Of a DNA stretch of 64,000 bases, positions 5,799-57,000 are shown piece by piece. The stretch is from Megaustenia siamemsis (lineage: Eukaryota > Mollusca > Gastropoda > Stylommatophora > Ariophantidae): positions 38,020,256-38,084,255 of the forward strand of contig JAVIAB010000025.1 in assembly GCA_032433765.1 (NCBI GenBank), given 5' to 3'. The translations under genes were made by a program, and so were the position numbers. Every line of letters begins with the position of its first letter. Position 1 is the stretch's first letter. Under the pieces are notes generated by a model. That model did not search any database, was not told where the DNA came from, and was given only the letters and a program-made list of their open reading frames with translations.

Positions 5799-8010
5799 TT
5801 ATATGTCTCGGTACAGCCACAGCCAGCATGATGCTCTTTCAGCTGACTCAGCAATCGTCTTCATTGTTCTTGTTCGCATTTCCCCCTTAATTATTAGCCT
5901 CTTTAATAGGTCGTAGAGGAATAAGGCCGCGAGTCCTCTGGCACTAAAGTCCACAGCGAACACATTAACCTGCTGTCCAAACTCGATGGCGAGATCCTGG
6001 TATTTGACTAGTTTAAATATATGTTGTTCCTTTATCCTGGTATTTGACTAGTTTAAATATATGTTGTTCCTTTATCCTGGTATTTGACTAGTTTAAATAT
6101 ATGTTGTTCCTTTATCCTGGTATTTGACTAGTTTAAATATATGTTGTTCCTTTATCCTGGTATTTGACTAGTTTAAATATATGTTGTTCCTTTATCCTGG
6201 TATTTGACTAGTTTAAATATATGTTGTTACTTTATCCTGGTATTTGACTAGTTTAAATATATGTTGTTACTTTATCCTGGTATTTGACTAGTTTAAATAT
6301 ATGTTGTTACTTTATCCTGGTATTTGACTAGTTTAAATATATGTTGTTACTTTATCCTGGTATTTGACTAGTTTAAATATATGTTGTTACTTTATCCTGG
6401 TATTTGACTGGTTTAAATATATGTTGTTACTTTATCCTGGTATTTGACTAGTTTAAATATATACTGTTCCTTTAACCTTGTATTTGACTAGTTTAAATAT
6501 ATACTGTTCCTTTATCCTTGTATTTGACTAGTTTAAATATATACTGTTCCTTTATCCTTGTATTTGACTAGTTTAAATATATACTGTTCCTTTATCCTTG
6601 TATTTGCCTAGTTTAAATATATACTGTTCCTTTATCCTGGTATTTGACTAGTTTAAATATATACTGTTCCTTTATCCTTGTATTTGACTAGTTTAAATAT
6701 ATACTGTTCCTTTATCCTTGTATTTTGCCTAGTTTGAATATATACTGTTCCTTTATCCTTGTATTTGACTAGTTTAAATATATACTGTTCCTTTATCCTT
6801 GTATTTGACTAGTTTAAATATATACTGTTCCTTTATCCTTGTATTTGACTAGTTTAAATATATGCTGTTCCTTTATCCTTGTATTTGACTAGTTTAAATA
6901 TATACTGTTCCTTTATCTTGGTATTTGACTAGTTTAAATATATACTGTTCCTTTATGTTTGTATTTGCCTAGTTTAAATATATACTGTTCCTTTATCCTG
7001 GTATTTGACTAGTTTAAATATATACTGTTCCTTTATCCTTGTATTTGACTAGTTTAAATATATACTGTTCCTTTATCTTGTATTTTGCCTAGTTTGAATA
7101 TATACTGTTCCTTTATCCTTGTATTTGACTAGTTTAAATATATACTGTTCCTTTATCCTTGTATTTGACTAGTTTAAATATATACTGTTCCTTTATCCTT
7201 GTATTTGACTAGTTTAAATACATGCTGTTCCTTTATCCTTGTATTTGACTAGTTTAAATATGTACTGTTCCTTTATCCTTGTATTTGACTAGTTTAAATA
7301 TATACTGTTCCTTTATCTTGGTATTTGACTAGTTTAAATATATACTGTTCCTTTATGTTTGTATTTGACTAGTTTAAATATAAGCTGTTCTTTATCCTGG
7401 TATTTGACTAGTTTAAATATATGCTGTTCCTTTATCTTTGTATTTGCCTAGTTTAAATATATACTGTTCCTTTATCCTTGTATTTGACTAGTTTAAATAC
7501 ATGCTGTTCCTTTATCCTGGTATTTGACTAGTTTAAATATATACTGTTCCTTTATCTTTGTATTTGACTAGTTTAAATATATGCTGTTCTTTATCCTGGT
7601 ATTTGACTAGTTTAAATATATGCTGTTCTTTATCCTGGTATTTGACTAGTTTAAATATATGCTGTTCCTTTATCCTGGTATTTGACTAGTTTAAATATAT
7701 GCTGTTCTTTATCCTGGTATTTGACTAGTTTAAATATTTGCTGTTCTTTATCCTGGTATTTGACTAGTTTAAATATATGCTGTACCTTTATCCTTGTATT
7801 TGACTAGTTTAAATATATACTGTTCCTTTATCCTGGATTCGAATGGCACTGTGAGCTCTATTAAGACGGCATGGGTCATACCTGACATGTAAAGTGCAAC
7901 ATCCGGGCGCATTTTAGATCTCTTGATCCACTCTGGGCACTTAACCTCGTCCTGGGAGGTCAACAGCCATCTCCCAGTCATTCACTATCTCCAGCATCGT
8001 TAGAAAGATA
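5799..8010 (-). pseudogene. Retroelement ORF C-terminal tail, split by minisatellites
   Basis: Reading the minus strand from about 8005: TMLEIVNDWEMAVDLP, then after a frame change CPEWIKRSKMRPDVALYMSG, VLIELTVPFESRIKEQ and IFKLVKY. A 40-bp array follows, then the frame resumes as QDLAIEFGQQVNVFAVDFSA and ends AESAERASCWLWLYRDI with TAA at 5799-5801. The order DWE, RPD, ELTVPxE, KxxKY, then GxxxxxLYxLL and AAExASxWLW matches a C-terminal domain I recognise from uncharacterised reverse-transcriptase-linked ORFs of invertebrates and fish. The RPD/ELT pair resembles a PD-(D/E)xK-like fold, which is inference. The ORF is not functional as found. Confidence 0.6.
5995..7833. repeat. 40-bp tandem array inside retroelement ORF, about 46 copies
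   Basis: The unit is tatttgactagtttaaatat plus atgttgttcctttatcctgg, with a left block (ttgttcc/ttgttac) and a right block (tactgttcc, ccttg). On the minus strand a unit reads IFKLVKYQD, the exact residues at which the retroelement ORF enters and leaves the array. Because 40 is not a multiple of 3, the array destroys the frame. Confidence 0.97.
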
Positions 8011-8560
8011 TATTCACTCGGTAGAAGGATAAAGATATATTCACTCGGTAGAAGGATAAAGATATATTCACTCGGTAGAAGGATAAAGATATATTCACTC
8101 GGTAGAAGGATAAAGATATATTCACTCGGTAGAAGGATAAAGATATATTCACTCGGTAGAAGGATAAAGATATATTCACTCGGTAGAAGGATAAAGATAT
8201 ATTCACTCGGTAGAAGGATAAAGATATATTCACTCGGTAGAAGGATAAAGATATATTCACTCGGTAGAAGGATAAAGATATATTCACTCGGTAGAAGGAT
8301 AAAGATATATTCACTTGGTAGAAGGATAAAGATATATTCACTCGGTAGAAGGATAAAGATATATTCACTTTGATTGAAGAATAAAGATATATTCACTCGG
8401 TAGAAGGATAAAGATATATTCACTCGGTAGAAGGATAAAGATATATTCACTCGGTAGAAGGGTAAAGATATATTCACTCGATAGAAACATAAAGATACAT
8501 TCACTCAGTAGAAACATAAAGATATATTCACTTGGTAGAAACATAAAGATACATTCACTT
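8003..8560. repeat. 27-bp tandem array, about 20 copies
   Basis: The unit is aagatatattcactcggtag plus aaggata. Most copies are identical; the last four (aaacata form) are diverged. On the minus strand it encodes nine-residue repeats (NISLSFYRV) that run straight into TMLEIVNDWEM of the retroelement ORF. Confidence 0.97.
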
Positions 8561-9084
8561 AATAAAAAAAATAAACAACAGATGGAGATATTTGCTTATG
8601 TAGCAAGATAAAAACAACAAAACACAACACAGGCATTAAAACAGAACTAAAAAACAAATGTAATCGTTCAAGAAGCTACACAGTAACAACAAAACACAAC
8701 AGAACTGTTCATAGACCCCAATGACAAACACACTTCATCTAAAAAGAAAAGATAGGCTGCCGGAAGCTAGAATCACTCGGAAAACAAGACAGCAGAAGAG
8801 GTCAGTCAAAGGGCAAAAGACCGCAAGCTATGTACTGCTTGATGTAACAAGTAAAATAAGGAAGGAAACCACAAGAATATGGCTATTTCGGTGTTGCTGT
8901 TTCTATTTTCTTATCAGATTAGATATGTTTCTGTGTGTTTCTGGTAGATTGCTTTGTTTTCTCTGTATCTTGTCTCGCAGATGTTGTTTACAAACGTGTG
9001 ATTAATTTGTTTCTCTGTTTGATCCATTTTTGTTTCGGAGTTTTGGGAGAAGCTATTTCGTGATCTGAGTCTGTCTGGACGAAT
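8561..9084 (+). mobile_element. AT-rich spacer with degenerate LINE family-A 3' tail
   Basis: About 8745-8885 aligns by eye with the 3' tail of the LINE at 28020-28720: the gaaaagat.. start, the cagcagaagagg and gggcaaaagaccgcaa block, and the final aaggaaggaaacc. It is strongly diverged. The flanks are A-rich on the left and T-rich on the right with no gene seen. Confidence 0.45.
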
Positions 9085-10585
9085 ATATTTATGGTCAATG
9101 TGAGGCTGTATTTAGGGGCAATATAAGGCTGTATTTAGTGGCAATATAAGGCTGTATTTAGGGGCAATGTGAGGGCTGTATTTAAGGGCAAAGTGAGGTT
9201 GTATTTAGGGGCAACGTGAGGCTGTCTTCAAGAGGCAACATGAGGCTGTGTCTTCAGTGACAACGTGGGGCTAAATTTAGGGGCAACGTGAGGCTGTATT
9301 TAGGGGCAATGTGTGGCTGTATTTAGGGGAAATGTGAGACTTATTTATGGTCAATGTGAGACTGTATTTAGGGACAACGTGTGACTGCATTTAGGAACAA
9401 TATGAGGCTGTCTTTAGGAGCAACGTGTGGCTTTATTTAGGGCAATATGAGGCTGTATTTAGGGGCACATTGAGGCTGTATTTAGTGGCAACGTGAGGCT
9501 TCTTTAGGGGCAATGTGAGGCTGTATTTAGGGGCAACGTTAGGGTGTATTTAGGTACAATGTGCGGCTGTCTTTAGGAGCAACGAATGGCTATATTTAGG
9601 GGCAATGTGAGGCTGTATTTAGGAGCAAAGTGAGGCTGTATTTAGTGGAAAAGTGTGGCTGTATTTAGGGACAAGGTTTGGCTGTATTTAGGGGGAACAT
9701 GTGGCTGTATTTAAGGGCAACGTGTGGCTGTATTTAAGGGCAACCTGAGGTTGTTTTTATTGGCAATGTGTGGCTGTATTTAGGGGCAACTTGTGGCTGT
9801 ATTTAGTAGCAAGGTGAGGTTGAATTTAGGGGCAATGTGAGGCTATATTTAGGGGCAATGTGTGGCTGTATTTAGGGGCAACGTGAGGCTGTATTAAGGG
9901 GCAGCGTTAGGCTATATTTATATTTAGGGGCAATGTTCGGCTGTATTTAGGGGCAATGTGAGGGCTGTATTCAGGGGCAATGTGGGGTTATATTTAGTGG
10001 CAATGTGAGGCTGTATTTAGGGGCAATGTGCGGCTGTATTTAGGGGTAATGTGAGGCTGTATTTAGGGACAACGTGAGGCTGTATTTAGGGGCAATGTGA
10101 GGCTGTATTTAGGGCAATGTGAGGCTGTATTTAGGGGCAACGTCAGGCTGTATTTAGGGGCAATTTGAGGCTGTATTTAGAGGCAATGTGAGGCTGTATT
10201 TAGGGGCAATGTGAGGCTGTATTTAGGGGCAATGTGAGGCTGTATTAAGGGGCAACTTGAGGCTATATTTAGTTACAATGTATTGCTGTATTTAGGGGCA
10301 ACGTGAGGCTATATTTGGTTACAATGTGTGGCTGTATTTAGGAGCAACATGAGGCTATATTTAGTTACAATGTGTGGTTGTTTTTAGGAGCAACATGAGG
10401 CTATATTTAGTTACAATGTGTGGTTGTTTTTAGGAGCAACATGAGGCTATATTTAGTTACAATGTGTGGTTGTATTTAGGAGCAACTTGAGGCTATATTT
10501 AGTTACAATGTGTGGTTGTATTTAGGAGCAACATGAGGCTATATTTAGTTACAATGTGTGGTTGTATTTAGGGGCAATGATGATG
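9085..10585. repeat. 23-bp degenerate tandem array, about 63 copies
   Basis: The unit is ggggcaatgtgaggctgtat plus tta. Copies are much more diverged than in neighbouring arrays. Near 10250-10570 a two-unit form (agcaacatgaggctatattt then agttacaatgtgtggttgta) takes over, a higher-order dimer. Confidence 0.95.
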
Positions 10586-10639
10586 GTTAACTCACTAGGT
10601 ACCATAGCTTCTGATTCCAGTTGATATATCATTATCAAT

Positions 10640-10800
10640 CTTATTATCGCACCGCCACGACAGCCACCACCATCATCACCATCACACCATCACCACCACC
10701 ATCAACATCATCATCACACCATCACCACCACCACCACCATCACATTTATCATAACAACCATCACCATCATCATCACCACCACCACCATCATCATCATCTA
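10640..10800. repeat. CAT/CAC trinucleotide microsatellite
   Basis: Imperfect caccat/catcat runs. The open frame through it (poly-His) is a microsatellite artefact. Confidence 0.9.
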
Positions 10801-11224
10801 GTGTGTACCTATTAGAACCTAACATCCATGACATCTACTCTGAGACTGTCTCAATTTTTTCTTGAGACGTACGATGTCTGTGTAGTCAATCCCATCCAAA
10901 TCCTACAGATCCTACTAAAAAGAGAAGATTAATTATAAACAAATAAAGAAACAAATAAGGAACGAGACAGAGCTAGGATGTAGTGACATGATCCAGGTAT
11001 AGCACCACGTGACCTTGTCTTACAGGTGTGAGAGAGAGAGAGAGAAAGAGAGAGAGCTGGGATAATTAATTTCTCTGGCAATTCTCTGACTCGTGAGAGA
11101 AAGTGGATACGGAGGAGGATGATGAGGAGTTTAAATTTCTCTGAAGAGTGGAGCTGATTTTTTTTTCTCTATTTCTGCTTCACTTTCATCTATCGAGTGT
11201 CGACGGATCAATAAACCGGAGTCT
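10801..11224. other. Unique sequence with GA microsatellite
   Basis: No gene seen. A (GA)n run lies at about 11031-11055. The rest is ordinary AT-rich noncoding DNA. Confidence 0.5.
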
Positions 11225-13590
11225 GAATGAAAGGTATGTCTACCTGGGAGTATACCATTGACAAAGGTGGATGAATGAAAGGTATGTCTTACTGGAGTAT
11301 ACCATTGATAAAGGTGGATGAATGAAAGGTATGTCTTACTGGGAGTATAACATTGATAAAGGTGGATGAATGAAAGGTATGTCTTACTGGGAGTATAACA
11401 TTGATAAAGGTGGATGAATGAAAGGTATGTCTTACTGAGAGTATACCATTGATAAAGGTGGATAAAGAAAGGTATGTCTACTGGGAGTATGCCATTGATA
11501 AAGGTGGATGAATGAAAGGTATGTCTTACTGGGAGTATACCATTGATAAAGGTGGATGAAAGAAAGGTATGTCTACCTGGGAGTATACCATTGATAAATG
11601 TGGATGAATGAAAGGTATGTCTACCTGGGAGTATACAATTGATAAAGGTGGATGAATGAAAGGCATGTCTTACTGGGAGTATACCATTGATAAAGGTGGA
11701 TGAAAGAAAGGTATGTCTACCTGGGAGTATACCATTGATAAAGGTGGATGAATGAAAGGTATGTCTACCTGGGAGTATACAATTGATAAAGGTGGATGAA
11801 TGAAAGGTATGTCTATCTGGGAGTATACCATTGATAAAGGTGGATGAATGAAAGGTATGTCTACCTGGGAGTATACCATTGATAAAGGTGGATGAATGAA
11901 AGGTATGTCTACCTGGGAGTATACCATTGATAAAGGTGGATGAATGAAAGGTATGTCTACCTGGGAGTATACCATTGATAAAGGTGGATGAATGAAAGGT
12001 ATGTCTACCTGGGAGTATACCATTGATAAAGGTGGATGAATGAAAGGTATGTCTACCTGGGAGTATACCATTGATAAAGGTGGATGAATGAAAGGTATGT
12101 CTACCTGGGAGTATACCATTGATAAAGGTGGATGAATGAAAGGTATGTCTACCTGGGAGTATACCATTGATAAAGGTGGATGAATGAAAGGTATGTCTTA
12201 CTGGGAGTATACCATTGATAAAGGTGGATGAATGAAAGGTATGTCTTACTGGGAATATACCATTGATAAAGGTGGATAAATGAAAGGTATGTCTTACTGG
12301 GAGTATGCCATTGATAAAGGTGGATGAATGAAAGGTATGTCTACTGGAAGTATACCATTGATAAAGGTAGATGAATGAAAGGTATGTCTTACTGGGAGTA
12401 TAGCATTGATAAATGTGGATGAAAGAAAGGTATGTCTACCTGGGAGTATACCATTGATAAAGGTGGATGAAAGAAAGGTATGTCTACCTGGGAGTATACC
12501 ATTGATAAAGGTGGATGAATGAAAGGTATGTCTTACTGGGAGTATACCATTGATAAAGGTGGATGAAAGAAAGGTATGTCTACCTGGGAGTATACCATTG
12601 ATAAAGTGGATGAATGAAAGGTATGTCTTACTGGGAGTATACCATTGATAAAGGTGGATGAAAGAAAGGTATGTCTACCTGGGAGTATACCATTGATAAA
12701 GGTGGATGAATGAAAGGTATGTCTTACTGGGAGTATACCATTGATAAAGGTGGATGAAAGAAAGGTATGTCTTACTGGGAGTATACCATTGATAAGGTGG
12801 ATGAAAGAAAGGTATGTCTTACTGGGAGTATACCATTGATAAAGGTGGATGAAAGAAAGGTATGTCTACCTGGGAGTATACATTGATAAAGGTGGATGAA
12901 TGAAAGGTATGTCTTACTGGAGTATACCATTGATAAAGGTGGATGAAAGAAAGGTATGTCTTACTGGGAGTATACCATTGATAAAGGTGATGAAAGAAAG
13001 GTATGTCTACCTGGGAGTATACCATTGATAAAGTGGATGAATGAAAGGTATGTCTACCTGGGAGTATACAATTGATAAAGGTGGATGAATGAAAGGTATA
13101 TCTACCTGGGAGTATACAATTGATACAGGTGGATGAATGAAAGGTATGTCTACCTGGGAGTATACAATTGATAAAGGTGGATGAATGAAAGGTATGTCTA
13201 CCTGGGAGTATACCATTGATAAAGGTGGATGAATGAAAGGTATGACTTACTGAGAGCACACCGTTGATGAAGGTGGATGAGTGAAAAGGTATGACTTACT
13301 GAGAGCATACCGTTGATAAAGATGTATGAAAGGTATGACTTACTGAGAGCATACCGTTGATAAAGATGTATGAAAGGTATGACTTACTGAGAGCATACCA
13401 TTGATAAAGATGTATGACTTACTGAGAGCATACCGTTGATAAAGATGTATGACTTACTGAGAGCATACCGTTGATAAAGATGTATGACTTACTGAGAGCA
13501 TACCGTTGATAAAGATGTATGAAAGGTATGACTTACTGAGAGCATACCGTTGATAAAGATGTATGAAAGGTATGACTTACTGGGAGCTTA
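11225..13590. repeat. 48-bp tandem array with a divergent right end
   Basis: The unit is atgaatgaaaggtatgtcta then cctgggagtataccattgat then aaaggtgg. About 42 copies run to 13240, with one- and two-base indels frequent in the edges and a homogeneous core at 11700-12180. From 13241 to 13590 a shorter variant (cttactgagagcataccgtt gataaagatgtatg) repeats. The 16-codon period keeps a minus frame open. Confidence 0.97.
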
Positions 13591-13934: not shown

Positions 13935-14165
13935 AACCATATTTTCTAATTCTTTATTATGTTTATCTATATCTTCTACTTCTTTATTATGTTTATCTAT
14001 ATCTTCTATTTCTTTATTATGTTTATCTATATCTTCTATTTCTTTATTATGTTTATATATATATATATCTTCTATATTCTTTATTCTGTTTATCTATATC
14101 TTCTGTCTCATTATTCTGTTTATCTATATATTCTTTTTATTTATTCTGTTCGTTATATTTTTTGT
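13935..14165. repeat. 30-bp AT-rich tandem array, about 7 copies
   Basis: Units of ttctttattatgtttatcta plus tatcttctat, degenerating to the right into ttctgtttatctatat forms. Confidence 0.8.
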
Positions 14166-15113
14166 GGTAGGCCCCTGAGTCTGGTGTTCTCACAACGCTT
14201 ATGGGGGCTCGTTGTGTTTTGATCGTTCTGCCTTGTCACTTGGCCAAAGCATTTTATCTGTTGTTTCTTTATTTATTCTATGGCGGAGTGTATTCCTAGC
14301 TTTTTTCTCAGTTCTTCATTTCTGATCTTATCTCTCAGACTGTTTCCTGTCATTCGTCTAACACATTTCATCTCTGTAGCGGTTATTTTTCTTATTGTTC
14401 TTGCATCTAGGGTCCAGGTCTGGCATTGGTAGCACAACGTTGGGATGAAGATTGTGTTGTATAGTGCTCGTTTTGTCTCTAGAGTTATTTCCTTGTTGGA
14501 CAATAGTGGTGATAGCTGTCCAATTATTTGACAAACTTTGTTGCATCTTGAGTCTATCTCTGCTGTTTGTGAATTGTTGTTTGTCACTAAACTTCCTAGG
14601 TATTTAAATTTCCCTACTTGTTTTAGTTGCCTGCCTTCTATAGTTATGTTGATGTTCTGTTTTAGTTGCCTGCCTTCTATAGTTATGTTGATGTCCTGTT
14701 TTAGTTGCCTGCCTTCTATAGTTATGTTGATGTTCTGTTTTAGTTGCCTGCCTTCTATAGTTATGTTGATGTTCTGTTTTAGTTGCCTGCCTTCTATAGT
14801 TATGTTCATGTTCTGTTTTAGTTGCCTGCCTTCTATAGTTATGTTCATGTTCTGTTGTAGTTGCCTGCCTTCTATAGTTATGTTGATGTTCTGTTTTAGT
14901 TGCCTGCCTTCTATAGTTATGTTGATGTTCTGTTTTAGTTGCCTGCCTTCTATAGTTATGTTCATGTTCTGTTTTAGTTGCCTGCCTTCTATAGTTATGT
15001 TCATGTTCTGTTTTAGTTGCCTGCCTTCTATAGTTATGTTCATGTTCTGTTTCAGAGATGTTCATGATTTCTGTTTTGTTGATGTTGATTTTCTTTGTTT
15101 CATTATATGACAT
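14166..15113 (-). mobile_element. LINE family A, 3' part of ORF2, with internal 39-bp expansion
   Basis: The minus strand encodes the C-terminal side of a non-LTR reverse transcriptase ORF: VGKFKYLGSLVTNNN, CNKVCQIIGQLSPLLSNKEI, FIPTLCYQCQTWTLDARTIR and EMKCVRRMTGNSLRDKIRNE. A 3' tail region follows, matching the copies at 27905 and 37500. The clade is not resolved. Upstream of the FKYLG motif the segment NITIEGRQLKQ is repeated 11 times. Confidence 0.85.
14628..15050. repeat. 39-bp array inside LINE ORF, 11 copies
   Basis: The unit is tgttttagttgcctgccttc plus tatagttatgttgatgttc. On the minus strand each unit is 13 in-frame residues (NITIEGRQLKQNM). Single-copy LINE sequence with the same residues exists at about 61605-61650, so the array expanded from one LINE codon block without breaking the frame. 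Confidence 0.95.
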
Positions 15114-15245
15114 AAAGCTGTCATCTTATGATATATAAGCCTCCAAAGATCTATTTGTCCATGCTCCACTACTGTTTGTTTGAATTGGCACCACATAATG
15201 TGGATGTACAATAACAAACGTACATCATTGGTCAGTTTCTAGTGT

Positions 15246-16640: not shown

Positions 16641-17215
16641 TCGTTCTCTTTTTCTTTCCTTATTTATTTGCCTTTCAGCGTCGACTGAGATATAGTTTGT
16701 GGTCTTTTGTTCTTCTATTGGTCTCTCCTGCTGTTATGTTTCCTAGTGTTTCTAATATTCCATCAATCCATCTTTTGTTCTTCTGTTCGCCTCTCCTGCT
16801 GGTATGTTTCCTAGTGTTTATAATATTCCATCAATCCATCTTTTGTTCTTCTGTTCGCCTCTCCTGCTGGTATGTTTCCTAGTGTTTCTAATATTCCATC
16901 AATCCATCTATTGCTCTTCTGTTCGCCTCGCCTGCTGCTATTTCCTAGTGTTTCTAATATTCCATCATTCCATCTTTTTCGTGATTCGCCCTGTTTTTTC
17001 TGGTGTTCTTACAACGTTTATTAAAAGCTACTTATATTGCATTTTTATCTATCTGTCTTATCACGTGGCCGAACCATTGTATCTGTTGTTTCTTGTATTC
17101 TATGTCATGCTTCTAATACATTTCATCTCAGTCGAGGTTATTTTTTTTATTTTTCTTGCATACAGGGTCCAGGTCTGGCATAGGCAGCACAACGTTGGGA
17201 TGAAGATTGTTTAGA
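16641..17215 (-). mobile_element. LINE family A, 3' end, with 68-bp repeats
   Basis: The minus strand carries the same sequence as 14350-14460 (CYQCQ..., EMKC region) at 17110-17215, then the 3' tail. The tail block tcctgctgttatgtttccta...ccatctttt is present four times at 16725-16985. It ends near ctttcagcgtcgactgagat at 16673-16692, the mirror of the cctcgacgctgaaag end of the copy at 28680. Confidence 0.8.
16725..16985. repeat. 68-bp LINE-tail array, 4 copies
   Basis: Reverse-complement form of the array at 28045 and the same orientation as the array at 60600. Units contain gtttctaatattccatcaat. Confidence 0.88.
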
Positions 17216-17704
17216 TAGAGTGGGGTAACCCCCTGCCCTCCCCAAACAGCACGAGTAATTTTATGAAAATATCTATCTTAGTTGCTGTGAAGATGATGAT
17301 TTTTACATAGCTTTTTTTTGTTCTTTTTTTTTGTTGTAATGTGACCTGACAGCGGCATGTAGCATTTCCATTTTTCAGCTACCAAGGGTTCTCAACTTGA
17401 GCTTGGTATCGTTCGTTTCCGTTATTACTAGACACTCGATCTAACCTACTCTGTGATCTGGGATCACTAGAAAAAAAAAAAAAAGAAAAAAAATCACACA
17501 CACAAATCGATCCAAAGTTGGCTTGTCTACCTTCTGTTTGTGAGACCAGCAGCCAAACCTTCACGCTACTCTCCTCCTAAACTTGTCTGTCTATCCATCA
17601 ACAACAATATAGAAAGCCCGCGTTCTGAACTTTTCAGTTTCAGCCGCGCAGTCTATCGGATCTATGCTTCACATGCATAGACTGATCATCGTCAACTAAA
17701 TATA
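17216..17704. other. Noncoding unique sequence
   Basis: T-rich and A-rich homopolymer tracts (17310-17335, 17469-17490). No coding or RNA gene recognised. Confidence 0.4.
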
Positions 17705-19379: not shown

Positions 19380-20170
19380 TGTAATATAGAATCATCATCA
19401 TTATTATCAGGTGCCATGCCAGTTGGCGTAGGGGACTATCTCTCTCCACATCAGAGGAAGAGGTATGTTTGCACACTCGGAAAAAATGACAAATAATCAA
19501 CAACAGAAAAAAATATGGACCAAGGCAGGATCGAACCCGTACTCAGTGACACAGCGCCTTGCCACGAAAAGCCAAACGCTAGGGAACACTGCCACTCAGC
19601 TAACTAGAAGTGTTCCCTAGCGTTTGGCTTTTCGTGGCAAGGCGCTGTGCCACTGAGTACGGGTTCGATCCTGTCTTGGTCCATATTTTTTTTCTATTTT
19701 TTTTCTGTTGTTGATTATTTGTCATTTTTTCCGAGTGCTGTAAACATACCTCTTCCTCTGAACTGATTCACTGATTATCGCCTCGGAAGTTTCCCTCTAT
19801 AATAATATTCATTTATTATTATTTGTCTCCTCTCTCCACATCACTCGGTCCTTCATACATGTCTTAATTTCACACGCTGATATTTTATTATATCATTTGG
19901 ATAAGCTGTTCAATATTTTCTCTCTTGGGTTTCCTCTGCTCCTCTTTCCATTCATTCTGCCTGTTATTATAGCATTCTCAATACCTTCTTTTCACATCAC
20001 ATGCCCAATACATGTAGATTGTCTCTTCCTTATGATTTTGATATTTCTGGTTTCTTCAGCTCGTTTTAAATATTCTTCATTTGTACTTGTTATCCATGGA
20101 ATTCGTAGCATTCTTTTGATAAACCACATCTCAGCTGCCTCTAATGTTCTTTGTGTTGTCTTACTTTCAA
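19380..20170 (-). mobile_element. LINE family B, diverged 3' end, interrupted by a foldback insertion
   Basis: The minus strand at 19850-20160 reads FIKRMLRIPWITSTNEEYLK, RAEETRNIKIIRKRQSTCIG, HVMRKEGIENAI and GRMNGKRSRGNPRENIEQ, homologous to the B copies at 40798 and 48900. The 3' end (ggcgtaggggactatctctc, then an atcatcatca tail) is separated at 19380-19453. Between them is an insertion flanked by a 14-bp duplication. Confidence 0.8.
19440..19843. mobile_element. Foldback insertion of two inverted tRNA-SINE-like units, with 14-bp target duplication
   Basis: Arms 19451-19590 and 19609-19761 are inverted copies with an 18-bp spacer. Each arm contains a B-box-like gggttcgatcctg and the outer part has an A-box-like tagctgagtggcag on the minus strand. 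The direct repeat ctctctccacatca flanks the unit at 19440-19453 and 19830-19843. Confidence 0.8.
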
Positions 20171-20182
20171 ATATAGTAGTAA

Positions 20183-20220
<38 letters not shown>

Positions 20221-20462
20221 ACGTAGTAATAGCAGTAGTAGTAGTAGTAGTAGTGACGTAGTAATAGTAGTAGTAGTAGTAGTGACGTAGTAATAGTAGT
20301 AGTAGTAGTAGTGACGTAGTAATAGTAGTAGTAGTAGTAGTGACGTAGTAATAGCAGTAGTAGTAGTAGTAGTAGTAGTGACGTAGTAATAGTAGTAGTA
20401 GTAGTAGTAGTAGTAGTGACGTAGTAATAGTAGTAGTAGTAGTAGTAGTAGTGACGTAGTAA

Positions 20463-20497
<35 letters not shown>

Positions 20498-20506
20498 ACG
20501 TAGTAA

Positions 20507-20538
<32 letters not shown>

Positions 20539-21022
20539 ACGTAGTAATAGTAGTAGTAGTAGTAGTAGTAGTAGTGACGTAGTAATAATAGTAGTAGTAG
20601 TAGTAGTAGTAGTGACGTAGTAATAGCAGTAGTAGTAGTAGTGACGTAGTAATAATAGTAGTAGTAGTAGTGACGTAGTAATAATAGTAGTAGTAGTAGT
20701 AGTGACGTAGTAATAGTATTAGTAGTAGTAGTAGTAGTGACGTAGTAATAATAGTAGTAGTAGTTGTAGTAGTGACGTAGTAATAGTAGTAGTAGTAGTG
20801 ACGTAGTAATAATAGTAGTAGTAGTTGTAGTAGTGACGTAGTAATAGTATTAGTAGTAGTAGTAGTAGTAGTAGTGACGTAGTAATAGTAGTAGTAGTAG
20901 TAGTGACGTAGTAATAGCAGTAGTAGTAGTAGTAGTGACGTAGTAATAGTAGTAGTAGTAGTAGTAGTAGTAGTGACGTAGTAATAGCAGTAGTAGTAGT
21001 AGTAGTAGTGACGTAGTAATAA

Positions 21023-21057
<35 letters not shown>

Positions 21058-21095
21058 ACGTAGTAATAGCAGTAGTAGTAGTAGTGACGTAGTAA

Positions 21096-21130
<35 letters not shown>

Positions 21131-21331
21131 ACGTAGTAATAATAGTAGTAGTAGTAGTAGTAGTGACGTAGTAATAGTAGTAGTAGTAGTAGTAGTGACG
21201 TAGTAATAGTAGTAGTAGTAGTGACGTAGTAATAGTAGTAGTAGTTGTAGTAGTGACGTAGTAATAGCAGTAGTAGTAGTAGTAGTGACGTAGTAATAAT
21301 AGTAGTAGTAGTAGTAGTAGTGACGTAGTAA

Positions 21332-21363
<32 letters not shown>

Positions 21364-21650
21364 ACGTAGTAATAGCAGTAGTAGTAGTAGTAGTAGTGAC
21401 GTAGTAATAGTAGTAGTAGTAGTAGTGACGTAGTAATAGTAGTAGTAGTAGTAGTGACGTAGTAATAATAGTAGTAGTAGTAGTGACGTAGTAATAATAG
21501 TAGTAGTAGTAGTAGTGACGTAGTAATAGTATTAGTAGTAGTAGTAGTAGTGACGTAGTAATAATAGTAGTAGTAGTTGTAGTAGTGACGTAGTAATAGT
21601 AGTAGTAGTAGTAGTAGTAGTGACGTAGTAATAATAGTAGTAGTAGTTGT
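20165..21650. repeat. TAG microsatellite punctuated by TGACGTAGTAA, left block
   Basis: Runs of (tag)4-12 separated by gtgacgtagtaata. The spacing changes in three-base steps, so the array is a compound satellite with variable unit length (about 27-50 bp). It continues as 22325-23575 after a LINE insertion. Confidence 0.96.
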
Positions 21651-21653
21651 AGT

Positions 21654-22324: not shown

Positions 22325-22520
22325 TCAATAGTTGTAGTAGTGACGTAGTAATAGTATTAGTAGTAGTAGTAGTAGTAGTGACGTAGTAATAGTAGTAGTA
22401 GTAGTAGTGACGTAGTAATAGCAGTAGTAGTAGTAGTAGTGACGTAGTAATAGTAGTAGTAGTAGTAGTAGTGACGTAGTAATAGCAGTAGTAGTAGTAG
22501 TAGTAGTGACGTAGTAATAA

Positions 22521-22555
<35 letters not shown>

Positions 22556-22593
22556 ACGTGGTAATAGCAGTAGTAGTAGTAGTGACGTAGTAA

Positions 22594-22631
<38 letters not shown>

Positions 22632-22823
22632 ACGTAGTAATAATAGTAGTAGTAGTAGTGACGTAGTAATAGTAGTAGTAGTAGTGACGTAGTAATAGTA
22701 GTAGTAGTAGTGACGTAGTAATAGTAGTAGTAGTTGTAGTAGTGACGTAGTAATAGCAGTAGTAGTAGTAGTAGTGACGTAGTAATAATAGTAGTAGTAG
22801 TAGTAGTAGTAGTGACGTAGTAA

Positions 22824-22858
<35 letters not shown>

Positions 22859-23192
22859 ACGTAGTAATAGCAGTAGTAGTAGTAGTAGTAGTGACGTAGT
22901 AATAGTAGTAGTAGTAGTAGTGACGTAGTAATAGTAGTAGTAGTAGTAGTAGTAGTGACGTAGTAATAGTAGTAGTAGTTGTAGTAGTGACGTAGTAATA
23001 GTATTAGTAGTAGTAGTAGTAGTAGTAGTGACGTGGTAATAGTAGTAATAGTATTAGTATTAGTAGTAGTAGTAGTAGTAGTAGTGACGTAGTAATAGCA
23101 GTAGTAGTAGTAGTAGTAGTAGTGACGTAGTAATAGTATTAGTAGTAGTAGTAGTAGTAGTAGTAGTGACGTGGTAATAGTAGTAATAGTAT

Positions 23193-23224
<32 letters not shown>

Positions 23225-23361
23225 ACGTGGTAATAGTAGTAATAGTATTAGTATTAGTAGTAGTAGTAGTAGTAGTAGTGACATTGTAATAGTAGTAATA
23301 TTATTATTAGTAGTAGTAGTGACGTGGTAATAGTAGTAATAGTATTAGTAGTAGTAGTGAC

Positions 23362-23415
<54 letters not shown>

Positions 23416-23575
23416 ACATTGTAATAGTAGTAATATTATTATTAGTAGTAGTAGTGACGTGGTAATAGTAGTAATAGTATTAGTAGTAGTAGTATTAGTA
23501 GTAGTGACGTGGTGGTGGTAGTAGTAGTAGTAGTGGTGGTGGTGGTGGTGGTGGTAGTAGTAATAGTAGTAGTAG
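22325..23575. repeat. TAG microsatellite punctuated by TGACGTAGTAA, right block
   Basis: Same pattern as the left block. From about 23020 the separator changes to gtgacgtggtaatagtagta and attagtattag forms, and it ends in a GGT-rich run near 23530-23560. Confidence 0.95.
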
Positions 23576-24084: not shown

Positions 24085-49840
<25,756 letters not shown>

Positions 49841-49847
49841 TTGATGT

Positions 49848-49853
49848 ATTAAA
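49848..49853 (+). terminator. Poly(A) signal ATTAAA of the RGK gene
   Basis: ATTAAA lies eight bases after the stop codon of the RGK gene. It is the first cleavage-signal-like hexamer downstream of the coding sequence. Confidence 0.5.
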
Positions 49854-49964
49854 GTTGTATCGAAATTCTCGAGTTGAAAGTTGTATTTTTTATGGGGAAA
49901 TTCAGTAATTTGTTGCCTCTACAATCGGTCTTTCTCGGATTTCAGTAATTTCTTGATTTCACAT

Positions 49965-50235
49965 GGAGCCGCGATAGCTCATTGGTTAGTGAACTGGGCT
50001 ACAAAGGACAAGAGGTAGAGTTCGATCCCAATCGACGGCTTCCGGTTCACCCAGTCTTTAATGGGTACCTGATTTTTTTTTTTTTTATCTGGGAAAGTAA
50101 AGCGGCATCGTCGTAATACCGACCACATTACTCCAAAAAATCATGTGCTGAAGGTCTGTAAAATTTATGGTCACTAACACCACATTCCCTATACGCCACT
50201 TGGCGTGACGGGGGCTCTTTACTTTACATTTTTGA
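49965..50235 (+). mobile_element. tRNA-derived SINE, copy 4
   Basis: The head is ggagccgcgatagctcattg with a near-consensus B box (gagttcgatccc). The body is as in the other copies, with a longer T run (15 T). It sits 110 bases past the RGK poly(A) signal. Confidence 0.88.
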
Positions 50236-50464
50236 TTACCCAAATTGATTTTGTTAAAATTCAGTAATCTGTTGCCGGTACTATTTTGTCTGGTTGGAAT
50301 TCAATGATTTGTTTTCATCAAATTAATGTTCATGGTCAAAGAAGCATCCATTTCATGTGAAACTAAAGAAAGATATTTCTAAAACATTTGAAGTGAGAAT
50401 GAACGATTCTTATCGCATTCTCTTATCCATTGTATGAGATAATGGCTCTTGTTTAAGTTGCTTT

Positions 50465-50885
50465 TGGATTATAGCTGTGTGGATTATGTTGTGTCTACAG
50501 TGTTGGATCACGGCTGTGTGGATTATGTTGTGTCTGTAGTGTTGGATCACGGCTGTGTGGATTATGTTGTGTCTGTAGTGTTGGATCACGGCTATGTGGA
50601 TAATGTTGTGTCTGTAGTGTTGGATCACGGCTGTGTGGATTATGTTGTGTCTATAGTGTTGGATCACGGTTGTGTGGATTATGTTGTGTCTATAGTGTTG
50701 GATCACGGCTGTGTGGATTATGTTGTGTCTATAGTGTTGGATCACGGCTGTGTGGATTATGTTGTGCCTATAGTGTTGGATCACGGCTGTGTGGATTATG
50801 TTGTGTCTGTGGTGTTGGATCACTGCTGTGTGGATTATGTTGTGCCTATAGTGTTGGATCCCGGCTGTGTGGATTGTGTTTAGTT
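50465..50885. repeat. 39-bp tandem array, about 11 copies
   Basis: Unit ttgtgtctgtagtgttggat cacggctgtgtggattatg. The 13-codon period keeps both strands open; not a gene. Confidence 0.96.
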
Positions 50886-52029
50886 GTTTATGTTGATATG
50901 GTCTAACCATTTGTTTCTCCCTTTTCTTGTATATGACACTAGCAAGATTAATCCATTGACAGCCTCTATCGGCACTTATGTGTGGCCATGAAATCTATGC
51001 TACAGCAGCAGATAGTAACGACAGGTGAACTACAGAGGGACGATTGTCACAGCTCAATATTTCTAGGGCAGCAACATTTTAAAATGAAGAAATAATCAAG
51101 AAATAATTATCAAGTAACAATCAAGAACTAAAATAAAGTAGTAGTTAAGAAACAAAAATAAAGCATTAATCACAAAAAAGTAATAATCAAGGAATAAAAT
51201 GTAACAATCAAGAAATAAAAAATAAAGTAATATTCAAGAAATAAAAATAAAGTAATAATCAAGAAATAAAAATAAAGTAATAATCAAGAAATAAAAAAGT
51301 AATAATAAAAATATATAAAAAATTAATAATCAAGAAATAAAAGCAGGTCTACTTGCTTGCCCCCTACCAGGGGAATGTACTCACCACGACTTCTATATTG
51401 TGTCCTGACGTATCTTCTTCTTGTTTACTTTGTGATGGTCTCCCCTTATTGAAATAAACGACATAGGGCAATATAAAAGGAGGCAAACACTGGGCAAACA
51501 CAAGCTACAAAACGGGTGTTGACATTTCACTACTTTATTCTGATTATTAGATCGGCAAATGTCATAGACCTTGCTGTGCCCAGGGCAAAAGCACTGGCCA
51601 CATCTTCAAACGTGATGAGTTGTCACTCTTTAATAGTACTTGCCTGTTGAGAAAAAATTTTAAAAAAGTAACATCTGGACAAATGTGTAATCTAGAAAAA
51701 AGTAATATTTACTTTATATAATTACTACATAATATCTAGAATAATGTCTAGAGAAATGTAATATCTGAGATGAAGAAAAAATTAATATCTGGCAAAAAGT
51801 AACATTTGGGATAAATGTAACATGTAGGAAAAAGTAATATCTGGAAAAAAGTAATTTTTTGAAAATGTAATGTGTTGGAAAATGTAATATCTGGGAAAAA
51901 AATAATATATGGAAAAATGTAACATGTACGAAAATGTAATTTCTGGGAAAATTAAATATGTAGAAAAATGTAATATCTGAGAAAGTGTAATATCTAGGAA
52001 AATGTAATATTTGGGAAAATGTAAAATGT
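50886..52029. repeat. AT-rich degenerate repeats and unique spacer
   Basis: 51085-51345 repeats aataatcaagaaataaaaat aaagt; 51640-52029 repeats aaatgtaatatctgggaaa in degraded form. 51346-51640 between them is unique with no gene seen. Confidence 0.75.
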
Positions 52030-52430
52030 ACGAAAATAACTATAATATTTGCTTCACAGTTGAATTACTAGAAATGTTAATAACTATAATATTTGCTTCA
52101 CAGTTGAATTACTAGAAATGTTAATAACTATAATATTTGCTTCACAGTTGAATTACTAGAAATGTTAATAACTATAATATTTGCTTCACAGTTGAATTAC
52201 TAGAAATGTTAATAACTATAATATTTGCTTCACAGTTGAATTACTAGAAATGTTAATAACTATAATATTTGCTTCACAGTTGAATTACTAGAAATGTTAA
52301 TAACTATAATATTTGCTTCACAGTTGAATTACTAGAAATGTTAATAACTATAATATTTGCTTCACAGTTGAATTACTAGAAATGTTAATAACTATAATAT
52401 TTGCTTCACAGTTGAATTACTAGAAAAATA
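52030..52430. repeat. 44-bp tandem array, 9 near-identical copies
   Basis: Unit ttaataactataatatttgc ttcacagttgaattactaga aatg. Copies are essentially identical, so amplification is recent. Each unit contains tttgcttcacag, a good splice-acceptor look-alike. Confidence 0.97.
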
Positions 52431-52909
52431 AATAACTGAAATATTGAATAAATTAAATTAGTAGGGCGAATTTTTGCAAGTGAATTACTAAAATCAAACT
52501 TGAAATGCTGGAATTATTTATAACATTAATCAGCAGATAGTTTTTACTCATTATTGGGAAGTAGAATACAACAAATATGAAACAGCAGCTTGACCTAAGA
52601 AGAGTCGAGGCAAAATACGACGTTTCAGCACAAGCCTTCATCGGGTACAATAAATAAAAAAACACAAGGCCAGCCCTTATCTATGTGAAAAGCGCCAAGT
52701 ATGGCCATGTAGAGGAATGACCGGAAGAGGAAGTGATCGGGACCAAAGTGCCTGTTGGTCACATGCTAAGTGGTCAATAGACCAGACAGGCTAAAAGAAG
52801 GCCAAATAAAGTAAGTCCCTGAAATAAAAAAAAAAAAAAACAGAGATGGTAAGAATGGGAGGATATACGGAGCTATAGTTAGTTCACAAATTCGTGCCCA
52901 CAGAGTTGA

Positions 52910-53429
52910 TCAATTATCTCGGAAACTGTTTGATGAATTTCTGTAATTCTTTTTCATGAAATCTTATTTTTCTTCACCGGCCTTCAGATTTTATAACAAT
53001 TAAGTACAAAGGTACTCTGAATTTTGCACAAATCGTTTTTTGTTATATAATTTCAGGAAAATATCAAACCATGTGCCCTAAACATGAGATTTTACTGTAA
53101 ATTATGTTAATTTTCTAACAAACCTCTCAGTGGATTGTGTCTTACAAGTTGCGGTTCAGTGAGTGCGAGATGGTGCTAAAATTGTGTGGAGAACACATGA
53201 AAGCTGCTTTTTTAAACGGTGAGTTGATGACAACAAATGTGGGTATTGTAAACTTATAACAATGAGGACAGCCAAGAAAATCATATTTTTATATACCACA
53301 AAAAAGCAAAACTCTTTCCTAAATGTGTGACAGTAGGGACAAAAATCAGACTTAAGGTCGGTGATAAAAAATAAGATTTCATGAAAAAGAATTACAGAAA
53401 TTCATCAAACAATTTCAGAGATAATTAAT
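52910..53429. mobile_element. Foldback/MITE-like element with about 85-bp inverted arms
   Basis: Arms 52910-52992 and 53341-53429 are inverted copies, both containing gaatttctgtaattcttttt catgaaatcttattttt or its complement. The 350-bp interior has no ORF. Poly-A runs lie just outside on both sides (about 52825 and 53435). No transposase or clear target duplication seen. Confidence 0.7.
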
Positions 53430-53995
53430 ATACTGTTAAAAAAAAAAAAAAAAAAAACTATCTTTACGTCACATAGTACAGTACCATTGCTGGTGTATGT
53501 CGGGGGGCAACGATAGAACCAGAGGGATAAAGGCCGCTTGGTCAAGCAGTCGCCATGACGTGTACGACTCAGGATTTTTACACGAATTTCTCAACGAACT
53601 ATAACATGGGAGGTCAGTAATTAAAGGAAAGAATGACAAGAGTTGAATCCCTTTGGGTGGATAGTGCCGAACCTGGCATCATTCGATTTGTCTTGTCTTT
53701 CCTTAGATGTGACTACTCACCATTTTATATATATTATACAAATTTATTTTGATATATTCTCTGCAAGGTCTACTCACAGCCTCGCATTATATTGAGTGTA
53801 TTGTATGCGATATCGTATGTGATATGTTTGTGTTTGCGCCACTCATCATTGAGTTGTCGAATTTATTTTAAAACGAAGTACAAGTCGAAATTCAATAAAT
53901 GTCTAAAAGTGAATTATTTGAAAGTCTAAAAATAGAAACACATTTTCATTTCAGGTAAAGAAGATTCAAACCTCTGCTAAGTTGATCGCTTTGAA
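53430..53995. other. Unique noncoding sequence
   Basis: No gene or repeat recognised apart from the A-run at 53434-53456. Confidence 0.4.
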
Positions 53996-54702
53996 CACGC
54001 ATCATCATCATCATCACCATCATCACCATCATCATCATCATCACCATCATCATCACCATCATCAACATCACCATCATCATCATCAACATCACCATCATCA
54101 TCGTCACCATCATCATCACCATCATCATCATCACCATCATTAACATCACCATCATCATCATCATCAACATGATCATCATCATCAACATCACCACCATCGT
54201 CAAGTACCAGGCCTGCTGGCGTAGGTGATCATGTCTCTCCACAACTTTCGATCTCGACAGTTATTTATCATTTCTGTTGTTGACCTTCTGCCAAGCCATT
54301 CTCTTAAGCTGGCTGGTATATTTTCTCTTTGCTTCTCTCTATCTCTTCGTCCCTAAATTGTCCCAGTTGTTACAATATATTCCAGATGTTCTCTTCTCAT
54401 TGCATGGCCAAAAAATGATGATTGTTTCTTCCCAATATTGGAAATTAGCTCTCTATTTGCTTTGGCCTCTTTCAGAAAGTGTTCATTACTCTTCTTATCT
54501 GTCCATGGTATTCTCTACGTTCTTCTGTAAAACCACATTTCTACAACCTCTAATGATTTTCTTGTCTGTTGACCTATTGTCTATGATTCATATCCATATG
54601 TTAAGATTGGCTCTATATAATATTTCAGAACTCGATTGGCTCTATATAATATTTCAGAACTCTTTTTCTAGTTTCTTTAGCACACACATAGAAACACCTT
54701 GA
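53996..54702 (-). mobile_element. LINE family B, 3' end with expanded (CAT)n tail
   Basis: 54000-54190 is an imperfect (CAT)n/(CAC)n run at the position of the element's (ATG)n tail. 54194-54702 has the same sequence as 43600-44050 (gtaccaggcctgctggcgta ggtgatcatg...). Near 54615-54660 a 32-bp piece is duplicated (gattggctctatataatatt). Confidence 0.85.
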
Positions 54703-54811
54703 GCTATTGAAGAATTAAAACTCTTACAAAAACACAGAAGAAACAACACAAATAGTAAACATAAAACAAAGGGACACAAATCTAAATAAGGGGAAACAAT
54801 TTAAACAGTAG

Positions 54812-55123
54812 TTATCGAACCTTACCCCAATATCCACCCCAACCGCCATGACCACCTCCGTAACCACTTCCGTAACCACTTCCGTAACCACTTGTAATAA
54901 CACCCAAGCCCAATCCTAATCCCAATCCACCAAAGCCATATCCACCGTAGCCTCCAATTCCACCATAGCCTCCATAGCCACCGTAGCCTCCAATTCCACC
55001 ATAGCCTCCATAGCCACCGTAGCCTCCAATTCCACTATAGCCACCATAGCCGATACCAAAGTAAGCGTTGGCTTGGGTCATCACCATAGCAACCAGAACC
55101 AAAACGAGGGCGACTTTCTGCAT
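54812..55123 (-). CDS. Secreted Gly/Tyr-rich structural protein (shell-matrix-like)
   Basis: The protein has 103 residues. Residues 1-20 form a clear signal peptide (MQKVALVLVLVAMVMTQANA), probably cut before YFGIGYGG. Residues 21-65 are repeats of GGYGGYGGIGGYGG type, followed by a short GLGLGLGLG run, GYGSGYGSGYGGGHGG and the basic end WGKVR. There is no cysteine in the mature part. The ATG is the first in the predicted mRNA: the coding exon starts three bases upstream, at 55126, after the acceptor cttctgttttcag, and the upstream exon has no ATG. Low-complexity secreted Gly/Tyr proteins of this size occur in molluscan shell matrix (shematrin-like and other GRPs), but also in cuticle, glue or antimicrobial roles. 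The function is therefore inferred from composition. No AATAAA or ATTAAA is seen in the 110 bases before the LINE at 54700. Confidence 0.85.
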   Translation of the reverse strand: MQKVALVLVLVAMVMTQANAYFGIGYGGYSGIGGYGGYGGYGGIGGYGGYGGYGGIGGYGGYGFGGLGLGLGLGVITSGYGSGYGSGYGGGHGGWGGYWGKVR

Positions 55124-55189
55124 TGTCTGAAAACAGAAGAAAAACAGAAATATTAGTTCCCCCTGACGCGCGCACTTTCTTCTTTCTTC

Positions 55190-55360
55190 ACTTCCTCTTG
55201 TATCCGTTCAGAAGTCGAGGGTTGATGCAAAGTTCTAGTTCCCGCCCTTTTCGTGGCTTTACCATTATAATTTGATGCTGTTGTAACGTTTCTTTGATGT
55301 TGTCTGTCATTTTTACTCTAGGTCTGCCTTTTCATCTTCTCCAATCTCCATTTTCAATAT
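55190..55360 (-). mobile_element. LINE fragment F (GRPR-type tail), weak
   Basis: The minus strand reads KGRPRVKMTDNIKETLQQ, resembling the GRPRxxWTDNI tail of some non-LTR ORFs. It is short and diverged, and lies in the intron of the Gly-rich gene. Confidence 0.45.
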
Positions 55361-55436
55361 ATGCTTTGTATGATAAGCAATCACACAACATTTTTTCTAG
55401 ATGTGCAAATCAGTAAATTTGTTGTTTCTGCTTGTA

Positions 55437-55685
55437 GCTTAGGAGTGGAGGTCATATAAAAGATAATCTATTTGCTGATGAGACGGTCCTAATCACTAAG
55501 AGTGAAAATGAGTTACAAGAAATGTTAGACAATATAGTGAAGGAAATCAAAAATAAAGGACTCAGCCTTAATAGCAAAAAAGATAGAGGTAATGGTAGCA
55601 ACAGTGAAAAAGACATCACTTCAATGCACAATAAAGACAAGTGAAACAACATTAGAACAGGTAAATTAATTTAAATATCTGGGTA
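55437..55685 (+). mobile_element. LINE family B, reverse-transcriptase FADE motif fragment
   Basis: Reads GGHIKDNLFADETVLITKSE, NELQEMLDNIVKEIKNKGLS and LNSKK. FADE corresponds to the catalytic FADD/YADD box with the second Asp replaced. It ends at the ISGNAIRCL point where the 31-bp array begins. Confidence 0.82.
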
Positions 55686-57000
55686 ATGCGATCCGATGTC
55701 TCGCTCACTCTGGGTAGTGAGATCCGATGTCTAGCCCTCTCTGGGTAGTAATATCTGATGTCTAGCCCTCCCTGGGTAGTAAGATCCGATGTCGCCCTCC
55801 CTGGGTAGTAAGAACTGATGTCTAGCCCTCTCTGGGTAATGCGATCCGATGACTAGTTCTCTCTGGGTAGTGAGATCCGATGTCTAGCCCACTCTGAGTA
55901 GTGAGATCCGATGTTTAGCCCTCTCTGGGTAGTGAGATCCGATGTCTAGCCCACTCTGGGTAGTGAGATCCGATGTCTAGCCCTCTCTGGGTAGTGAGAT
56001 CCAATGTTTAGCCCTGTCTGGGTAGTGAGATCCGATGTTTAGCCCTCTCTGGGTAGTGAGATCCGACGTCTAGCCCTCCCTGAGCAGTGAGATCCGATGT
56101 CTAACCCCCCCAACCTCCCTGGGTAGTGAGATCCGATGTCTAGCCCTTCCTGGGTAGTGAGATCCGATGTCTAGCGCTGCCTGGGTAGTAAGATCCTATG
56201 TCTAGCCCTTCCTGGGTAGTAAGATCCGATGTCTAGCCCTCTCGGGTAGTAAGATCTGATGTCTAGCCCTCCCTGGGTAGTAAGATCCGATGTCTAGCCC
56301 TCTCTGGGTAGTAAGATCCGATGTCTAGCCCTCTCTGGGTAGTAAGATCCGATGTCGCCCTCCCTGGGTAGTAAGATCCAATGTCTAGCTCTTTCTGGGT
56401 AGTAAGATCCAAAGTTTAGCCCTCTCTGGGTAGTGGGATCCGATGTCTAGCCCTCTCTGGGTAGTAAGATCCGATGTCTAGCCCTCTCTGGGTAGTGAGA
56501 TCCGATGTCTAGCCCTCTCTGGGTAGTGAAATCCGATGTCTAGCCCTCTCTGGGTAGTAAGATCCGATGTCTAGCCCTCTCTGGGTAGTGGGATCCGATG
56601 TCTAGCCCTATCTGGGTAGTGAGATCCGATGTCTAGCCCTCTCTGGCCGGTAAGATTAGATGTCTAGCCCTCTCTGGTCAGTGAGATCCGATGTCTATCC
56701 CTCTCTGATCAGTAAGATCCGATATCTAGCCCTCTCTGGTCAGTAAGATCCGATGTCTAGCCCTCTCCGGGTGGTGAGATTCGATGTCTAGCCTTCTCTG
56801 GGTAGTAAGATCTGGTGTCTAGCCCCCTCTAGATAGTGAGATCCGATGTCCAGCCCTCTCTGGTCAGTGAGATCCGATGTCTAGCCCTCCCTGGTCAGTG
56901 AGATCCGATGACTAGCCCTCTCTGGGCAGTGAGATTCGATGTCTAGCCCTCTCTGGGCAGTGAGAACCAATGTATATCCCTCTCTGCATAGTGAGATCCG
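55686..57000. repeat. 31-bp tandem array, about 42 copies
   Basis: Unit gggtagtgagatccgatgtc tagccctctct. On the plus strand it reads LGSEIRCLAL and continues the LINE motif (KY)LGNAIRCLA, so the unit is LINE-derived. It is more diverged than the neighbouring array. Confidence 0.96.

Follow-up and report, generated by a model that had tools for sequence, protein, structure and literature searches.

LINE coding sequence as a source of minisatellites in a 64-kb stretch of a gastropod genome

The stretch of 64,000 nucleotides analysed here (the window) comes from the gastropod Megaustenia siamemsis (GenBank assembly GCA_032433765.1, contig JAVIAB010000025.1, positions 38,020,256 to 38,084,255, forward strand). 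Tandem repeats, remains of long interspersed nuclear elements (LINEs) and exon-like pieces of an RGK-type GTPase gene lie in it side by side. When the rows reported by Tandem Repeats Finder (TRF) are merged, 44 tandem arrays take up 41,566 of the 64,000 bp; sorted by hand, 10 of them are microsatellite-like and 34 minisatellite-type. Outside the arrays there are 22,434 bases, of which an automatic tblastn search with 77 external proteins assigns 6,495 (29%) to LINE remains; the figure rises to 7,591 (34%) with flanks added by hand. Several LINE families are recognised by their C-terminal tails, in translation and by tblastn with the same 77 proteins. The family termed F1 has the order GRQLKQ, IIGQLSPLLS, RWIDGILEALGNITAAEANR, and its relatives reach 79% identity; none could be confirmed in viral and prokaryote collections. 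The tail of family F2 bears DUF6451, which some relatives carry together with RVT_1. Named LINE relatives come from Arion vulgaris, Bradybaena similaris, Octopus, Haliotis and the crinoid Anneissia, while most other matches are unnamed.

The original prediction held that nine unit types in this window, forming 11 arrays, are short codon blocks of LINEs. TRF finds all the named arrays at the expected places (Table 1). For the comparison with LINE proteins (unit test), each unit was written as a short tandem, translated in six frames and compared, ungapped, with the 77 proteins, alongside 100 dinucleotide shuffles; x/100 is the number of shuffles that match LINE proteins as well as the real unit does. 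The protein set (53 + 23 + 1 matches) consists of relatives of three LINE tails in the window, so that other LINE families lie outside it, and the test took in 28 of the 34 minisatellite-type units, with six short arrays left out. Seven of the 11 claimed arrays pass at 1/100 or less, namely the 40-bp, 25-bp and 62-bp arrays, the 31-bp array reading IIGQLSPLLS and all three 68-bp arrays (a, b and c). The 39-bp, 38/19-bp, 27-bp and 31-bp LGxxIRCLA units do not separate from their shuffled controls. Among 15 unclaimed units compared with the 77 proteins, the best reached 6/100, a search that LINE families unlike the protein set would escape. Two tandem duplications beside or within LINE tails, of 29 bp and 118 bp, were absent from the prediction (Table 1).

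The position of the arrays within the elements was followed in a one-unit view, in which flank, one unit and flank were joined and aligned to external proteins; it was made for seven arrays. One alignment spans both junctions of the 39-bp array (6/65), the 31-bp IIGQLSPLLS array (38/58) and array 68a (7/50), and no alignment passes through both junctions of the 40-bp, 68b, 62-bp and 27-bp arrays. At the 40-bp locus, protein P0077 matches the unit together with the element's upstream flank and ends there; with the unit taken out of the query, P0077 reads ELTVPFESRMDEQHTYKVSKYSDL against ELTVPFESRIKEQHIFKLVKYQDL. At 68b, P0076 matches the 68-bp unit over its full length as well as the downstream flank, and the upstream flank matches P0066 in a different frame. 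In the 62-bp array, 43 of the 62 unit bases align together with the upstream flank. The prediction that several arrays sit exactly in place inside the element therefore holds for the 39-bp, 31-bp and 68a arrays and partly for the 40-bp, 68b and 62-bp arrays. It fails for the 25-bp array, which is displaced, and is unsupported for the 27-bp array.

Two units that failed the unit test have support of another kind. The 39-bp unit is LINE-derived in view of the alignments through both junctions and of a single-copy relative at 61.6 kb. The source of the 19-bp unit is a single-copy relative, TSALCAVFGP, at 15.3 kb, which holds the 11-bp sequence CAGGGCCGAAG twice, 19 bp apart. Nine of the 11 claimed arrays thus have units homologous to LINEs (40, 39, 31 IIGQLSPLLS, 68 at three loci, 38/19, 25 and 62 bp): pieces of LINE coding sequence have become tandem arrays. 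The claim does not extend to the other two arrays. A LINE origin of the 27-bp unit is unsupported, as the protein match ends at the array edge, and the LGxxIRCLA unit is unmatched to LINE proteins, with LINE sequence on its left flank only. The flank of the 40-bp array at 5700-5993 has no match among the 77 external proteins and is classed as LINE by reading only; the LINE tail near 7.8-8.0 kb that holds this array is one that we take to be R2-like.

Table 1. Positions in the window of the claimed arrays, of two tandem duplications and of an unexpanded copy of the 68-bp site; the unit test column gives the shuffles, out of 100, that match LINE proteins as well as the real unit.
Feature	Positions	Strand	Unit test	Remarks
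40-bp array, ~46 units	5994..7836	-	1/100	in LINE tail ELTVPFESRIKEQYIFKLVKYQDL
27-bp array	8004..8559	-	29/100	upstream edge of the LINE tail holding the 40-bp array; adjoins opposite-strand F1 tail
Unexpanded F1 copy of 68-bp site	8747..8831	+		AAAAGA at 8747 and 8815, 68 bp apart
39-bp array, 11 units, NITIEGRQLKQ	14619..15052	-	18/100	in place in F1; both junctions crossed
68-bp array a, 4 units, RWIDGILEALGNITAAEANR	16703..16978	-	0/100	in place in F1; AAAAGA at each end
68-bp array b, 9 units	28041..28658	+	0/100	in F1; one end repeat mismatched
31-bp array, 8 units, IIGQLSPLLS	37061..37316	+	0/100	in place in F1
38-bp (2 x 19) array, SALCAVFGP	38422..40284	-	21/100	from LINE 3' end
25-bp array, PVLTYGCE	40285..40775	-	0/100	from LINE family F3 (LTYGCE stretch)
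62-bp array, 53 units, WAQLEKVAQN	45107..48390	-	0/100	near 3' end of LINE tail
29-bp tandem duplication (x2)	54605..54662	-	16/100	in F3 LINE tail; assignment from flanks and frame reading
31-bp array, LGxxIRCLA	55678..57004	+	99/100	starts at YLG motif of F3 tail; adjoins another array on the right
68-bp array c, 10-11 units	60594..61313	-	0/100	in F1; downstream AAAAGA only
118-bp tandem duplication (x2)	61712..61955	-	5/100, best match at unrelated place	adjoins F1 sequence; LINE origin of unit by reading and flanks

With respect to their origin, we consider it likely that the LINE-derived arrays are ordinary minisatellites, which formed in place in decaying LINE copies once these had been inserted, through slippage or unequal exchange at short direct repeats. 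Direct repeats are found at the ends of the single unit in five unit types: 40 bp (7 bp, ATCCTGG), 39 bp (5 bp, TGTTT), 31 bp (8 bp with one mismatch, TTG(T/C)CCAA), 19 bp (11 bp) and 68 bp (6 bp). Random LINE sites attain these five scores in 0-1.75% of 4000 draws each; the one-unit sequences of the 40-bp and 39-bp types were built from the array loci themselves. Independent single copies have a clear direct repeat for the 19-bp unit (15.3 kb) and the 68-bp unit (8747), and a single copy of the 31-bp unit at 14.5 kb carries a 5-bp repeat with a spacing of 31 bp. In the non-array DNA of both strands, AAAAGA is repeated at a spacing of exactly 68 bp in one place, the 8747 copy, with 0.022 such pairs expected on the + strand.

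Distances between units point in the same direction. Within arrays they amount to 0.8-7% in eight of the ten arrays counted as LINE and to about 15% in two, and F1 bodies differ from each other by 11-35% (six pairs, four copies). The lower distances within arrays fit growth after insertion, although homogenisation also lowers them. In a comparison that took in 19 of the 34 arrays, 6 of the 10 LINE arrays and 4 of the 9 others have neighbouring units that resemble each other beyond chance (at most 25/500 permutations). In the slippage events, and the timing, that we infer, short direct repeats lying by chance 19-68 bp apart in an element would give rise to a first duplication, by replication slippage or unequal exchange, and further slippage would then lengthen each array and homogenise it locally.

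A process specific to LINEs, which had been part of the prediction, is not needed. Depending on whether two tandem duplications and two weak cases are added to the strict set, 9, 11 or 13 of the 34 minisatellite-type arrays are LINE-derived. This share matches the 29-34% of LINE sequence in non-array DNA (binomial p 0.26-1.0), in a small test that would miss a moderate excess and in which arrays that consumed their source are unclassifiable. The 13 arrays of the widest set hold 11,970 of 36,452 array bases (33%), and arrays number 1.71 per kb in LINE sequence and 1.41 per kb outside it. In this small sample, arrays are thus neither confined to LINEs nor detectably enriched in them. On this reading, non-LINE DNA in the window is subject to the same process, which makes the LINEs its substrate rather than its cause.

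Several observations weigh against an origin of all these arrays by slippage at direct repeats after insertion. The 62-bp unit lacks a clear direct repeat (10% of random sites score equally well), and the 29-bp duplication, being exactly two units long, has none. At the 68-bp loci, array b has a direct-repeat score of only 3 and array c has one of the two repeats, since the adjoining F1 element seems to miss the sequence directly upstream of that array. In single copies at 61.5 kb (31-bp unit) and 61.6 kb (39-bp unit), the matches are just 3 and 4 bp long, at slightly different distances, and the F1 copy at 8747 possesses both AAAAGA repeats, yet is unexpanded. The 25-bp array lies 328 bp away from the matching stretch of the neighbouring F3 element and borders directly on the 38-bp array, which belongs to another family, an arrangement that simple slippage does not make; a deletion or a template switch at short homology would be the simplest reading. 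Three arrays at one F1 site exceed the expectation for random placement. The similarity of neighbouring units does not exceed chance in four LINE arrays and five others, and clustering of units by locus would also be expected from the homogenisation of inherited arrays. Among human repeats derived from transposable elements (TEs), those with flanking direct repeats number 300 of 7,276, and young TEs are richer in tandem repeats, which the authors take as a hint at retrotransposition (PMC3389668). Finally, the analysis covers a single window, where arrays with a consumed source escape classing.

The 68-bp site is the most interesting part of the window and represents either a hotspot of the F1 family or an inherited duplication. 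Six F1 copies in the window hold all or part of the site, and it is expanded in three of them. Of the unexpanded ones, the 8747 copy is a true relative (0/300 shuffles align equally to any of four F1 sites), with pairwise mismatches of 21-26% to the array loci and 32% to the copy at 37.9 kb. The latter has a worn AAAAGA pair, and the copy at 62.6 kb, which seems to break off inside the unit, has no AAAAGA. Beside array c, at 61313-61345 on the - strand, the F1 copy reads as if it were without the stretch from MKCVRRM to the 68-bp site, and short homology resembling AGGAAACA is present at the joint.

Independent expansion of the 68-bp site at a shared hotspot is favoured, but unproven. Whole units differ on average by 3-7% inside a locus and by 9% from one array locus to another. 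In a tree of 23 units, these cluster by locus, with 3 label changes against a shuffled mean of 9.9 (0/200), and with mostly weak branch support. Alternatively, an active F1 master may already have carried a 68-bp duplication or array, which was then inherited by the three insertions. The unit ends are identical at the three loci, and the flanks (16-32% different downstream, 28% upstream for a and b) are more divergent than the units, which would allow for a small array or duplication having been inherited. In the portion that single copies also contain, the array loci are 11% apart, closer to each other than to the copies at 37.9 kb (18-21%) and 8.75 kb (21-26%). However, the 62.6-kb copy is 13% away from them, so that the copies with arrays do not form a clear subfamily. 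A single unit is present in external relatives extending to the site, such as P0076 and P0066, and the clustering by locus also speaks against a common array. Inheritance from a master element is therefore unlikely in our judgement. A stronger version of the hotspot would make F1 an element with a built-in expansion site, in which a pair of conserved AAAAGA repeats, spaced by 68 bp close to the 3' end, repeatedly and independently turns new insertions into minisatellites. We put this forward tentatively, as a possibility that is rather doubtful.

The prediction had named two mechanisms, template slippage by the reverse transcriptase during insertion and later replication slippage. Later slippage fits better, because the 68-bp units cluster by locus, distances within arrays are low compared with those between F1 copies, and direct repeats accompany five unit types. 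Template jumping in target-primed insertion could be invoked for the 27-bp, 38/19-bp and 62-bp arrays, which sit at LINE ends, and the displaced 25-bp unit resembles a template jump; the richness of younger human TEs in tandem repeats, with the suggested link to retrotransposition (PMC3389668), also agrees with it. The 39-bp, 31-bp and 68a arrays, in contrast, are internal to the element, with both flanks colinear, and non-LINE arrays are about equally dense. Units within arrays are mostly more alike than LINE copies, although homogenisation has the same effect. Amplification at the time of insertion is accordingly very improbable as the source of the arrays. A mere chance resemblance of short units, read in six frames, to some LINE peptide is hardly credible and was rejected for nine arrays (seven at 1/100 or less, two backed by colinearity or single-copy relatives); it may still apply to two of the 11, the 27-bp and LGxxIRCLA arrays.

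The statement that no named system exists for such arrays was too strong, as TE-derived minisatellites and a slippage model based on short direct repeats are both in print (PMC3389668, PMC6947457). In human DNA, 7,276 of 31,472 minisatellites and satellites (23.12%) are TE-derived (Ahmed and Liang 2012, PMC3389668). They have hotspots in AluS and LTR12, expand locally and in 300 cases have flanking direct repeats of 5-20 bp; only 6% are tied to known mechanisms, and most of those left unexplained consist of two units. The authors suggest that retrotransposition may contribute to the start of such repeats (PMC3389668). The arrays described here are similar in their TE-derived units and direct repeats, and perhaps in hotspots within families and local expansion, and differ in that they come from a mollusc-like genome, derive from LINE coding tails and reach up to ~98 units (compare PMC3389668). 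According to the model of Haber and Louis (1998), a motif flanked by direct repeats of 5-10 bp first becomes duplicated, through slippage or unequal crossing-over, and is then expanded (PMC6947457, PMC3389668). For five unit types we see no mechanistic difference from this model, as described there; the displacement of the 25-bp array calls for an additional rearrangement.

Further cases of TE-derived minisatellites are listed in a review (PMC6947457). In soybean Gmr9/GmOgre, minisatellites of up to 149 repeats per locus lie between the coding region and the long terminal repeat (PMC3305785). The likeness is that of minisatellites within a retrotransposon family; Gmr9/GmOgre is one family, whereas here arrays are found in coding tails belonging to several LINE families, and not in every copy. 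The closest mollusc or gastropod literature among the matches listed concerns PcH-sat of the limpet Patella caerulea, a 179-bp pericentromeric satellite of which a part comes from Nin-SINE (PMC11121367). It is likewise a gastropod tandem repeat that is partly TE-derived, but a satellite, not a dispersed minisatellite. A narrow combined query for reverse transcriptase and minisatellites found no literature joining the two, which says little. With TE-derived minisatellites and the slippage model in print, the phenomenon is known and the arrays here are new cases; a new mechanism is not called for.

Other features of the window are as follows. Exon-like pieces of the RGK-type GTPase, placed by reading of the translation, extend from ~24.1 to 49.8 kb (24090-49841) on the + strand; the closest solved relatives are RAD, GEM and REM, and Pfam assigns the Ras family. 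Since the pieces are spread over 26 kb, the arrays between them are probably intronic, and five of the nine well-supported LINE-derived arrays fall inside this span. The array from 41440 begins near an exon edge of this gene. Two TAG-rich arrays with GACGTAGTAATAG motifs (20174-21653 and 22329-23575) lie one on each side of an F2 LINE tail. The 118-bp repeat has a third copy after ~150 bp of other sequence (61956-62105); this insert is flanked on either side by ACTTGTGCCTGT, as would be expected of a target-site duplication, and is possibly a small mobile element. Four similar stretches at 17700, 37540, 44610 and 49965 (GATAGCTCAGTGGTTAGTGAACTGG ... GGTTCGATCC) look like short interspersed nuclear elements derived from tRNA, and no TRF array is seen inside them. 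A near-perfect inverted repeat at 19474-19737 consists of gapless 93-nt arms that are 94% complementary and outer 40-nt arms that are 100% complementary. An open frame at 54790-55125 (- strand) encodes a secreted-looking Gly/Tyr-rich protein starting with MQKVALVLVLVAMVMTQANAYFGIGYGG, and contains an in-frame 36-bp array inside its coding part.

Taken as a set of examples, the window shows clearly, within one stretch of DNA, how decaying LINE copies feed minisatellites, and nearby one-unit relatives show the starting state. The 68-bp site is a natural repeat of the same experiment, with one sequence and several insertions, some expanded and some unexpanded. If F1 does contain a built-in expansion site, the hotspot would seed expandable loci across the genome.

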